64,000 nt of DNA. It comes from Nitrospirota bacterium (GTDB taxonomy: Bacteria > Nitrospirota > Thermodesulfovibrionia > Thermodesulfovibrionales > UBA6898). The notes below the pieces were generated by a model. That model had not been told where the DNA came from and made no database searches. It worked only from the letters and a program-made list of their open reading frames with translations. The position numbers were made by a program, and so were the translations under genes. Location of the stretch: NCBI GenBank assembly GCA_021811105.1, contig JAJZPM010000007.1:1-64000 (forward strand), in the 5' to 3' direction. Below are positions 17,199 to 20,537 of the stretch, in pieces (the first letter of the stretch is position 1; the number at the start of each line of letters is the position of its first letter).

Positions 17199-19223
17199 TC
17201 AAAGCGTCGGGGAATAGCCCGGCAGCCCCCGGGGAGATCTCGAAGATAGCCCGGTAAGGTCGAAAAGCACTTTCATCGTGAAATCCCCGGGCGTCTTCAC
17301 CGCCTCCACACGGAAGCCCCAGCATTGTTTCTTGTATCTCATGTTAATCGTCAGGTTCCTCAATCCCCCGCCCTTTGCGTCATACCAGAGCTGTCCGGTC
17401 ATTTGCACCAGCCTATGCGGACTGAAAGCGACGTAGGTGGTGTACATAAGGACGTCCTCCTGCCTGTCATACCTTTCACCGACTACAAAGTTCGCATCAA
17501 ACGCCTTGAAGCCCACGTCCGAGGTAAGCGTTTCGATCTTTCCGGTGTTGACGTCGTATCTCGCCTCCAGCGTAAGTGGGAGAGGGGTATTAAAGTTCAT
17601 ATCAAGTATCAAAGGCAGAAAAGGCCGGTTCCCGTTGTAGGTGTCAAGAGGCTGCGTAAGCCGTATCGCGAAAAGCTGCCTCCCTCCGATCAGACCCCGG
17701 TTCAAGACGCTCAGTTCGACATTCGACGTCTTCCCGTAGAGTTCGGCCGAGTCGAGGACCGGAAGTGCGTTGTCGGAACTGTAGATGAAGTGATATCCGA
17801 CGGACGGTTCGATGATGTGGGTGAAGGAAGAGTATTTCTTATACAACCGGGTATGTCCCGTGACGTCATATTCGAACGCCGCCCTCTGCGTCATCTTCCC
17901 CGGGTCCTGCTCCCCATAATAGGAATACGCCGTATCCCTCAGTGCCACCGACTGGGTAACGACAAAATCCTTTCCCATGGAATGAAGGATCCTCGGATAT
18001 ATGTCCATTCTCCCCGCAGATACACCCTTCTCGCTCCAGAAGTTTCCCGCGGTCAGGGAGGCCGACAGCATGAAATCACCGAGCGGGGAATAATTCCGGA
18101 CATAGCCGACCTCGGGGAGTCTTTGGGGTACGACAGAAGTGTCGTTCTTCAGGTCCTGGCTGTACTGAGAAAGAAGATAGAGCCTCGAGTCAGGCAGGGG
18201 GAGATTAAGCTCTCCGACTGATTCGAGATAGCGCATGATCTTCACATCCCAGCGCGAACTGTACACCTGATAAAAATCCTTGTAGTCGATGTAATTGACA
18301 TTGAGGTACCCACCCAGTCCGTCGGGATGGCGGTTTTCGTAAGAGCCCCTCACCTCCCAAAAGTCCTTGTCCAGCTCGGTATCCCTTATGTGATATGCCC
18401 ACCAGTTCCCGCTGCTTCCTCCCTGCTCGATAAACCGGTACTCAAGTCCCGTCCCTATTCCACGTTTGCTGAAGCCGTCGAGCACGAGCGTTGCGTCGCG
18501 GTTTTCGGAGATCGCCCAGTAAAAAGGCAGACTGAGCGAGAAACCGCGGGTGCTGCTGTTGGAAACAAGCGGCATCAGAAGACCCGTCTGCCTCTCTTTT
18601 ATCAGCGAGGCCCACAAATAAGGGGTATAAAACACAGGGAGGTCCTTAATGCGAAAGGTGGTGTCACGCGAAGTAAGACGCTTGTCTATGACCGCGTTGA
18701 CATCTCTTCCTTTAAAACACCACGCAGGCACCGGCGCGTCGCAGGTGGTAAAGGTCGCATCGGGGCTGAAATAGTAGTCTTCACCGCGCTTCTCTATCTC
18801 TCTCCCCGAGATGTGGTAATTGTACTTTTTGTAAAAGACCTCTGCGCCGACAAGCCTGCCTGTCTTGGCGTCGAGGTTCATCTCTGCCTTTTCAGCAGTG
18901 ATCGAAGTCTCAGGGTCATTGTAAGTCAGGTGACCGGGGATCACCGTTTCGGAACTGTCTTCATAATAAGTGATCTCTGCGGACCGCAGAACGGCCCCGT
19001 CCCTTTCGATCGTGACCGATCCGGTGGCGACATATTTTTTCACCTCCCCGAAATATTCCAGCTTGTCCGCAGTGATGACGGTCTTGGGCTCGTCGGCAAA
19101 ACAGCGCAGCGTGAAAAGTGAAAGGTTAATAGTGAAAAGTGAAATAATAAAGAGAAAAATGAATGGCTTATTTCGATTATTCTCCGTGTTTTCACACTCT
19201 TCCTTTACCTTTTCACTTTTCAC
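17199..19223 (-). CDS. lptD: LPS-assembly outer-membrane protein LptD
   Basis: A 674-residue outer-membrane protein. An OstA/LptA-like beta-jellyroll (about residues 48-150, VITADKLEYFGEVKKYVATG) is followed by the LptD beta-barrel with LKERQTG-type loops and a C-terminal strand. It inserts LPS into the outer leaflet together with LptE. The start is a GTG at 19223, 6 nt after the folC stop, with a weak AGGGAA upstream. The first 38-39 codons, including the start and the hydrophobic signal core (FIFLFIISLFTINLSLF), lie inside a 113-bp inverted-repeat element; native sequence begins about RCFADEP. No other start codon is available. Confidence 0.9.
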   Translation of the reverse strand: MKSEKVKEECENTENNRNKPFIFLFIISLFTINLSLFTLRCFADEPKTVITADKLEYFGEVKKYVATGSVTIERDGAVLRSAEITYYEDSSETVIPGHLTYNDPETSITAEKAEMNLDAKTGRLVGAEVFYKKYNYHISGREIEKRGEDYYFSPDATFTTCDAPVPAWCFKGRDVNAVIDKRLTSRDTTFRIKDLPVFYTPYLWASLIKERQTGLLMPLVSNSSTRGFSLSLPFYWAISENRDATLVLDGFSKRGIGTGLEYRFIEQGGSSGNWWAYHIRDTELDKDFWEVRGSYENRHPDGLGGYLNVNYIDYKDFYQVYSSRWDVKIMRYLESVGELNLPLPDSRLYLLSQYSQDLKNDTSVVPQRLPEVGYVRNYSPLGDFMLSASLTAGNFWSEKGVSAGRMDIYPRILHSMGKDFVVTQSVALRDTAYSYYGEQDPGKMTQRAAFEYDVTGHTRLYKKYSSFTHIIEPSVGYHFIYSSDNALPVLDSAELYGKTSNVELSVLNRGLIGGRQLFAIRLTQPLDTYNGNRPFLPLILDMNFNTPLPLTLEARYDVNTGKIETLTSDVGFKAFDANFVVGERYDRQEDVLMYTTYVAFSPHRLVQMTGQLWYDAKGGGLRNLTINMRYKKQCWGFRVEAVKTPGDFTMKVLFDLTGLSSRSPRGLPGYSPTL
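19111..19223. mobile_element. 113-bp MITE-like element forming the 5' end of lptD
   Basis: Terminal inverted repeats: 19111-19127 and 19207-19223 share GTGAAAAGTGAAA(A)GGT. A second internal copy of GTGAAAAGTGAAA lies at 19132-19144. The interior is AT-rich and unlike the flanking GC-rich genes. The right end supplies the GTG start codon of lptD and the interior supplies its signal peptide. Confidence 0.7.
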
Positions 19224-19229
19224 TGTATT

Positions 19230-20537
19230 TCATTCCCTGAGTCGCGTGAGCACACCTTTGCTTCCCAGGAACTCCTTCGCCTCCCCGATGGTATAGAACG
19301 AACCGGTAATCAGGACCAGGTCCCCGGGCTGCCGCAACTCTTCTGCCTTGACAATCGCCTCTGCAACACTCTGAGCGACGATCGACGGATATCCCATCTT
19401 TGCGGCCGCCGCGGCAAGTCTGTCGGGAGAGGCCGCCCTGCCGTACGCCGGCGCAGCAAAAAGTATTTCGGCCGCCAGCGGCAGGAGGGGTCCCAGTATG
19501 CCTTCGATGTCCTTGTCCCCCATGGCCCCGATGACCAGGATAATTCTCCTGTACCGGGCAAGCACAATCTTTTTAAGGTGGTCCGAAAGGGCCAGGGAAG
19601 CTTGGGGATTGTGCGCGCCGTCGATGAGAACCGGCGGGTCGTCCCTCACCAACTCGAGTCTTCCCGGCCAGCGGACGCACGTGAGTCCTTTCACGATATC
19701 GAACCGAAGGCCGGGAAATTTCGAGGATATCACCTCGACCGTCTTCAAGGCCAGAGAGGCGTTGACCATCTGGTAGCTGCCCGGGAGCGCCACGCAAAGG
19801 TCGCGATAATCCCTGTCGCCGGAATAATTCAAGGTGATCCCGCCGAACGACTCAGCGACCAGCCCGGCAGTAAACTCCTTTCCGAACGTATAGAGCGCGG
19901 AGTGCTTCTCCGCAGACTTTGCTGACACCACCTTTATTGCCTCCGCCTCATGGTCAGCGCTCACGACGGGAATGCCCTCTTTTATGATTCCCGCTTTTTC
20001 CTTTGCGACCTCGCACAAAGTACGTCCCAGAAAATCACAATGGTCAAGGCCGATCCTCGTTATGACCGAGACCTCGGGCACGATAACGTTCGTTGCATCG
20101 AGCCGCCCTCCCAGCCCGGTCTCGACCACCGCCCATTCGACCCCCTTGTTTCTGAAATGGAGAAAGGCCATCGCGGTCACGACCTCGAAGAAGGTCGGGG
20201 AAAAATCTTCGATCTTCCCGGCTGCGGTCTTTACCTCTTCTGCAAGGGCTATCACTTCGTCTTCGCCGGTCTCTTCTCCGTTGATCCTGATCCGTTCCGT
20301 AAAGCTGAGAAGATGGGGGGAGGTGAAGAGCCCTGTCCTGACGCCCGAGGTCCGCAGGATCGATTCGATCATCGCGGAGGTCGAGCCCTTTCCGTTCGTT
20401 CCCGCTACGTGGACAGAGCGAAACGCATGATGGGGATTGCCGAATATAGACATAAGCGTCCGGATATTGTCCAGCCCGAACTTCATTCCGTGCTGCTGAA
20501 GGCCGTAGAGGTATCCGATCGCCTGCTGATAACTCAT
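19230..20537 (-). CDS. folC: Dihydrofolate synthase / folylpolyglutamate synthase
   Basis: 435 residues. It has the P-loop HVAGTNGKGSTSAMIES at about residues 44-60, TSPHLLSFTERIRING, a Mur-ligase-like central domain (TRIGLDHCDFLG with metal His), and DGAHNPQA in the C-terminal domain. It adds glutamate to dihydropteroate and to folates using ATP. Its ATG overlaps the accD stop by four bases, and lptD begins 6 nt after its stop, so all are probably co-transcribed. Confidence 0.95.
   Translation of the reverse strand: MSYQQAIGYLYGLQQHGMKFGLDNIRTLMSIFGNPHHAFRSVHVAGTNGKGSTSAMIESILRTSGVRTGLFTSPHLLSFTERIRINGEETGEDEVIALAEEVKTAAGKIEDFSPTFFEVVTAMAFLHFRNKGVEWAVVETGLGGRLDATNVIVPEVSVITRIGLDHCDFLGRTLCEVAKEKAGIIKEGIPVVSADHEAEAIKVVSAKSAEKHSALYTFGKEFTAGLVAESFGGITLNYSGDRDYRDLCVALPGSYQMVNASLALKTVEVISSKFPGLRFDIVKGLTCVRWPGRLELVRDDPPVLIDGAHNPQASLALSDHLKKIVLARYRRIILVIGAMGDKDIEGILGPLLPLAAEILFAAPAYGRAASPDRLAAAAAKMGYPSIVAQSVAEAIVKAEELRQPGDLVLITGSFYTIGEAKEFLGSKGVLTRLRE

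Follow-up and report, generated by a model that had tools for sequence, protein, structure and literature searches.

A degenerate inverted heptanucleotide array at the folC-lptD junction as the probable signal peptide of LptD in a Nitrospirota bacterium

The leader of lptD in the analysed window (the whole stretch of DNA under study, 64,000 nt from a Nitrospirota bacterium) consists of degenerate 7-nt repeats arranged as an inverted array, in which an R arm of AGTGAAA-type units is followed by a core and a Y arm of TTTCACT-type units. This array, located at the folC-lptD junction, has probably been kept as a Sec signal peptide. On a more tentative level, we propose that inverted heptad arrays constitute a self-renewing source of signal peptides, which would read as positively charged and then hydrophobic regardless of frame and strand, and would offer starts in every frame. 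Whole leaders together with their starts could hence be replaced repeatedly with no intermediate loss of function, and would be proof against slippage in 7-nt steps.

The array occupies positions 19111-19223, flanked by the folC stop on one side and the mature part of LptD on the other, and both strands were re-read here. The features of this region are:

17199..19223, minus strand: lptD (LptD_2, PF19838; 674 aa) with leader MKSEKVKEECENTENNRNKPFIFLFIISLFTINLSLFTLRCFA, assigned from the ORF list, Pfam and orthologue matches of the mature part
19111..19144, minus strand: Y arm of TTTCACT/TTTTCAC heptads, encoding the hydrophobic stretch ISLFTINLSLFT (lag-7 self-match 21/28)
19145..19189, minus strand: core between the arms, encoding what remains of the n-region and the beginning of the hydrophobic region (..NKPFIFLF), from sequence
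19190..19223, minus strand: R arm of AGTGAAA-type heptads, containing the GTG start and encoding a lysine-rich n-region (MKSEKVKEE), from sequence
19221..19223, minus strand: GTG start codon of lptD, the sole in-frame start (ORF list)
19231..19233, minus strand: ATG that overlaps the folC stop and is out of frame in this sequence (MKYSEK followed by a stop), from sequence
19230..20537, minus strand: folC (Mur ligase domains; ORF list and Pfam), the gene upstream of lptD
19111..19223, minus strand: predicted RNA hairpin of the two arms, pairing the GTG start region with h-region codons (-38 kcal/mol, z -5.2)

The original prediction placed a 113-bp unit with GTGAAAAGTGAAA(A)GGT ends at this site, and its sequence, ends and coordinates proved correct. 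GTGAAAAGTGAAA forms both ends (19111-19123 and 19211-19223) in inverted orientation, and a third copy is found at 19132-19144. With up to one mismatch allowed, this 13-mer has three matches in the 64-kb window, all of them within the lptD element, compared to a mean of 0.10 in shuffled versions of the window, of which 0/100 contained three or more. The arms (19111-19144 and 19190-19223) are 74% complementary over 34 nt. Terminal inverted repeats are therefore present, but they are built of heptads and do not form a unique terminal sequence. Read along the minus strand, the folC stop TGA (19232-19230) is followed by six bases, GTGAAAAGTGAAAAGG..., the core, TTTCACTTTTCACTATTAACCTTTCACTTTTCAC, and the mature part of LptD. 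The leader has a 7-nt period (21/28 matches at lag 7, p 0.002), with other lags not significant as a class.

Codons 1-38 of lptD fall inside the 113-bp element, which thus supplies most of the predicted signal peptide. Read by eye, the layout MKSEKVKEE..NKPFIFLFIISLFTINLSLFTLRCFA has a charged n-region, a hydrophobic h-region, and small residues before the mature part, which begins at about residue 44, with the cleavage site likewise placed by eye. By this shape the leader appears to be a real, repeat-built signal peptide, and gene identity together with peptide shape points to export of LptD, whose leader would be translated from GTG 19223 and secreted. As a separate observation, residues 38-41 (window 19101-19112, minus strand) at the leader end read TLRC (TLSC in close relatives), which is near the shape of a lipobox, though LptD is not known to be a lipoprotein.

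As originally predicted, the right end of the element is the GTG start of lptD. Apart from GTG 19223, no ATG, GTG, or TTG occurs in the lptD frame before the mature part, and the folC stop (19230-19232), which is in the same frame, is separated from it by 6 nt. The claim that no alternative start exists thus holds for the lptD frame, but it overlooked the ATG at 19231-19233, the frame of which closes after MKYSEK. In at least 12 of 30 relatives (counted by eye), lptD apparently starts at an ATG overlapping the folC stop (ATGA), and this ATG is still present, though out of frame, in the clade of the window. When the number of AGTGAAA units after folC was varied in silico, one unit brought the overlapping ATG into frame (MKYSEKVKEE...), two units, the present state, placed the GTG of the first unit in frame (MKSEKVKEE...), and three to eight units placed the GTG of the last-but-one unit in frame with an identical protein, while zero units left lptD without a start. 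An in-frame start and a practically unchanged leader are thus kept with one to eight units, and this suggests that a one-heptad change shifted the lptD start from ATG to GTG. Because R-arm units carry a GTG, gain or loss of units between folC and lptD would relocate the start and the gene would survive. No clear one-heptad length variants of the start array were seen by eye in the four genomes of this genus that carry the element (G000, G001, G002, and G004), and slippage tolerance is therefore to be read as a property of the array and not as an observed event.

The 7-nt period recurs in orthologous leaders. For each leader, a stretch of at most 126 nt preceding the mature part was scanned for the 28-nt segment with the best lag-7 self-match, which was compared to 500 codon shuffles (p<0.01). 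Positive leaders were obtained for 16/30 LptD, 17/29 DacA (D-Ala-D-Ala carboxypeptidase), and 20/30 AtpF orthologues, the latter two families having been chosen after tracts had been seen in both. A rerun with 200 shuffles gave 16, 17, and 19, respectively, and a stricter cut of at least 21/28 matches retained at least 7, 13, and 11 among the leaders listed. Lags 4, 5, 8, 10, and 11 yielded 0-1 leaders each in the three sets, and internal segments of the same genes were positive at lag 7 in 1/119, 3/115, and 2/59 cases (6/293 in total). In 373 kb of the window's own genome (unselected stretches plus the window), three places reach 21/28, one of which is the lptD element. The units themselves vary by species, with ACTTTTC, ACTATTC, ACTGTTC, ACTCTCC, CCTATTG, ACTTGTC, and ACTTGCT in h-regions and AGTTCAA, AGTTAAG, AGTCAAA, CAGTTAT, and GATACAA in n-regions.

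The cytosolic N-termini of FolC (0/24; 6 of 30 loci were unusable) and RsmE (0/30) are negative at lag 7. BamA, the one exported family selected with no advance knowledge of its leaders, is at background (2/24 at both lag 7 and lag 8, after dropping 6 of 30 loci without an anchor), and distant LptD loci (25-36% identity) gave 0/10 at p<0.01, leaving out L081, where the match begins at the edge. Among unselected N-terminal hydrophobic segments from three genomes, 3/90, 2/110, and 1/36 pass at lag 7 and 0-2 at every other lag, so heptad leaders are a minority of a few per cent overall; these samples and BamA led us to reject the idea that signal peptides are heptad-built in general. An upstream ORF lies within 600 nt of the mature start in 30/30 LptD, 28/29 DacA, and 28/30 AtpF loci vs. 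11/27 for BamA, and the median distances from the upstream stop to the mature start are 127, 119, and 107 nt for LptD, DacA, and AtpF, respectively. The start of RsmE is also close after an upstream ORF in many genomes, yet none of its 30 N-termini is positive, so closeness to an upstream ORF is insufficient alone. Heptad leaders are thus found mainly in particular exported genes with tight junctions; that such junctions are the rule is a suggestion drawn from one contrast family.

Repeats of the same kind are dispersed in the window's own genome (3.94 Mb), where the two-unit pattern WTTYACTWTTYACT has 27 matches (reversed control: 0) that merge into 17 tracts, counting the lptD element once. 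Repeat copies are thus present elsewhere in the genome, but no second full element was found. Of the 17 tracts, four are located in genuine coding sequence and read in the sense direction; 4/4 of these are in leaders of exported proteins, namely LptD, TolB, DacA, and a BtuF-type periplasmic binding protein. The remaining tracts are intergenic or at gene ends, and many intergenic ones are inverted (R units, core, Y units). Judged by LptD identity, the nearest named genomes are the Nitrospirae MAGs WY3.bin57 (93%), DBS2-1.bin90 (92%), and Ngb-4 (68%). A three-unit pattern occurs in 13/41 genomes, including the window's own, and in 21/198 genomes of a phylum sample, in which other heptads are missed by the pattern. 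The 12 other genomes of the former set contain 41 merged tracts, 22 of which are in sense orientation inside an ORF, unlike the other 19, although these counts are not independent because orthologous places in related genomes are included (e.g. L048, L109, L129). Leaders account for 17/22 of the in-ORF tracts: DacA (n = 4), AtpF with a leader (n = 4), TolB (n = 2), BtuF (n = 2; that of L132 identified by its sequence), SurA-like (n = 2), LptD (n = 1), an outer membrane efflux protein (OEP, n = 1), and CbiM (n = 1). The other 5/22 are not signal peptides: one is an insert within RsmE, one lies in the interior of a TPR protein, two extend the N-termini of PanD and phosphatidylserine decarboxylase, respectively, and one is in an ORF with no Pfam match. 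Nor is lptD the only case, since TolB, DacA, and BtuF in the same genome and LptD, DacA, and AtpF in many relatives also have heptad-built leaders.

Heptads were also observed in other contexts. Seven intergenic arrays of the window's own genome (L040, L045, L052, L056, L062, L065, and L070) apparently adjoin tRNA genes, as judged by eye from their flanks. On contig C14 of this genome, a cobalamin riboswitch (L038:6095-6374; Rfam RF00174, 50.8 bits) contains an 88-nt extra unaligned stretch with R-type heptads, and arrays therefore occur in structured RNA too. At L039 (G000:C3:23028-23061), R-type heptads are found in coding sequence distant from the N-terminus; from its sequence, the gene is presumably murD. 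On contig C26 of the own genome, Y heptads (L183:15148-15190) encode KPFTFHLSPFTEQRG directly before a prepilin-like start MALVLTLMIVALITA. In genome G035, RsmE (L113:1330-2223, minus strand) has 298 aa and includes an in-frame inverted heptad element, preceded by the repeat-like stretch NPPAPPFLKGGDGG, which is similar to NPPLPPFTKGGRGG near 7036 in L282; RsmE measures 237-260 aa in 28/29 other loci and 311 aa in L286. The highest number among the 198 genomes is found in G084, a member of another family of the phylum, with 29 three-unit matches in 3.0 Mb (reversed control: 0).

The properties of a 7-nt inverted array may account for its use as a leader. As 7 is not divisible by 3, the frame shifts by one with each unit, so that an open array yields one and the same heptapeptide whichever of the three frames is read. 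Y units give hydrophobic peptides (FSLFTFH, e.g. from TTTTCAC, CSLFTVH, LLPIAYC, LLLATCY), and their complements are polar or basic and in perfect arrays mostly contain a stop. Stops are found in perfect R arms, which speaks against this reading. Because the array is inverted, either strand reads K-rich first and hydrophobic second, and the order R arm, core, Y arm would thereby provide a lysine/serine-rich n-region followed by a hydrophobic h-region from either strand. This polarity is seen in the tracts: 17/56 Y tracts (58 tracts minus L109 and L111) have an R arm upstream at a distance of up to 130 nt and 0/56 have one downstream, with 0 and 1 in far windows. Such arrays would land at, or expand in, tight gene junctions and persist where a signal peptide is required or tolerated by the product encoded downstream.

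Replacement of leaders outpaces change in the proteins that follow them. The mature parts of AtpF in G000 and G004 are 97% identical, while their leaders consist of different heptads. Mapping the heptad label onto a tree of 30 LptD proteins requires 10 changes, a number about equal to the mean of 10.3 for shuffled labels; at least 8 of the 10 fall on well supported branches. Inverted arms beyond codon shuffles (p<0.05) were found in 16/52 lag-7 leaders vs. 1/37 other leaders, and with only 16/52 reaching this level, arm complementarity was rejected as a general rule. One plausible though tentative route to such leaders is growth in place, in which an ordinary purine-rich/pyrimidine-rich leader was expanded by 7-nt slippage, with hairpin template switching copying one arm into the other, and no element arrived. 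As regards origin, this is a sub-case of the repeat-built signal peptide that we favour. The difference in inverted arms between lag-7 and other leaders is consistent with it, as are heptad types that differ by gene and species, the lack of a common core, and polymerase slippage, which is cited as a proposed cause of heptamer abundance (PMC4692102). Against it, the architecture and units are common between genes, the cytosolic N-termini of FolC and RsmE are negative, and heptads occur inside the cobalamin riboswitch, where leader coding could not favour them.

The pairing of the two arms also raises the question of a function in the RNA. The predicted hairpin (-38 kcal/mol, z -5.2 vs. dinucleotide shuffles; z -4.9 on a slightly different stretch) holds the GTG inside its stem, and it may couple translation of lptD to that of folC or may simply follow from the inverted layout. 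An RNA device that hides the lptD start until the ribosome finishes folC would fit this fold, the folC stop 6 nt upstream of lptD, and the median of 107-127 nt between the upstream stop and the mature starts of LptD, DacA, and AtpF. However, the fold is weaker in relatives (z -2.1, -2.1, and -1.3), a different stem forms in G002, and a hairpin arises from any inverted array, making translational coupling an unlikely main explanation.

It is slightly more doubtful still that the element is a true MITE, i.e. a self-contained mobile element, bounded by terminal inverted repeats, that was inserted once upstream of lptD and then domesticated, as the original prediction had it. Its inverted ends, its size of 113 bp, and the same ends on dispersed tracts would suit such an origin, as would the inverted element in G035 RsmE, which is partly matched at C18:3358-3444 of that genome. 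Yet the window's own genome contains no full 113-nt match elsewhere; matches at 14 further places extend over no more than about 52 of the 113 nt, and a MITE family with a common core was therefore rejected. The shared part is limited to 7-nt units, and different species use different units in one and the same gene. No target-site duplication was seen by eye at the lptD element, for which there is no empty allele for comparison. The original prediction was to be abandoned if relatives conserved the sequence as an ordinary signal peptide and dispersed copies were lacking; three relatives of the same genus do keep it as their lptD leader, but dispersed repeat copies exist.

A coincidence of codon usage, by which hydrophobic leaders written in AT-rich codons appear periodic without any repeat origin, is very improbable: Y heptads do consist of codons in frequent use for Phe, Leu, Ser, and Thr, residues in which signal peptides abound, but the signal is lost in codon shuffles although the codons are kept, lag 7 alone stands out among six lags, a 7-nt period is meaningless for amino acids, BamA leaders lack periodicity, and the same heptads are found outside genes.

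Palindromic elements in protein genes of Rickettsia were reportedly described by Ogata in 2000. They are palindromic DNA translated in frame within conserved proteins (PMC2229807, PMC10969869), comparable in this respect to the RsmE insert of G035, but they measure about 150 bp and form sequence families with conserved peptides, whereas only the 7-nt unit is shared here, mostly in signal peptides. In a small putative bacterial gene, a short dispersed repeat from a 168-bp sequence family contributes to the predicted signal peptide (PMC2759123; reviewed in PMC2229807) and is in this respect similar to the lptD array, although the accessible part of that account describes no heptad period, frame or strand independence, or recurrence in essential conserved genes. 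The TAACTGA heptamer direct repeats of Beggiatoaceae, Cyanobacteria, and Bacteroidetes (PMC4679880) resemble the present repeats in being dispersed heptamers by start codons with one open strand (LSVISYQ), stops on the other, and indels in 7-nt steps; unlike the lptD array, they consist of one fixed heptamer, are mostly intergenic, and are direct. The term "signal peptide" has 0 occurrences in the main text of that paper. Degenerate heptanucleotide tandem repeats, some of them inverted and near gene ends, are also represented by the G-rich heptamers of Xanthomonas and Nostoc (PMC4692102), which by contrast are of the G-quadruplex type and under-represented in coding regions, with no protein role described in the part of the source consulted. 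Judged by titles and the beginnings of abstracts, the open-access literature yielded no description of heptanucleotide repeats as signal peptides. Within this literature, MITE-derived signal peptides and heptamer repeats are each known; their combination was not found.

Signal peptides vary fast and their origin is rarely traceable, but in the present case the DNA still shows what they were made from. With a period neutral to the reading frame and a layout neutral to the strand, the arrays offer a concrete route from non-coding repeats to secretion signals of core genes such as LptD, DacA, and AtpF, which would explain the replacement of leaders between close species. The repeat should also be kept in mind when start sites are called in such genomes.
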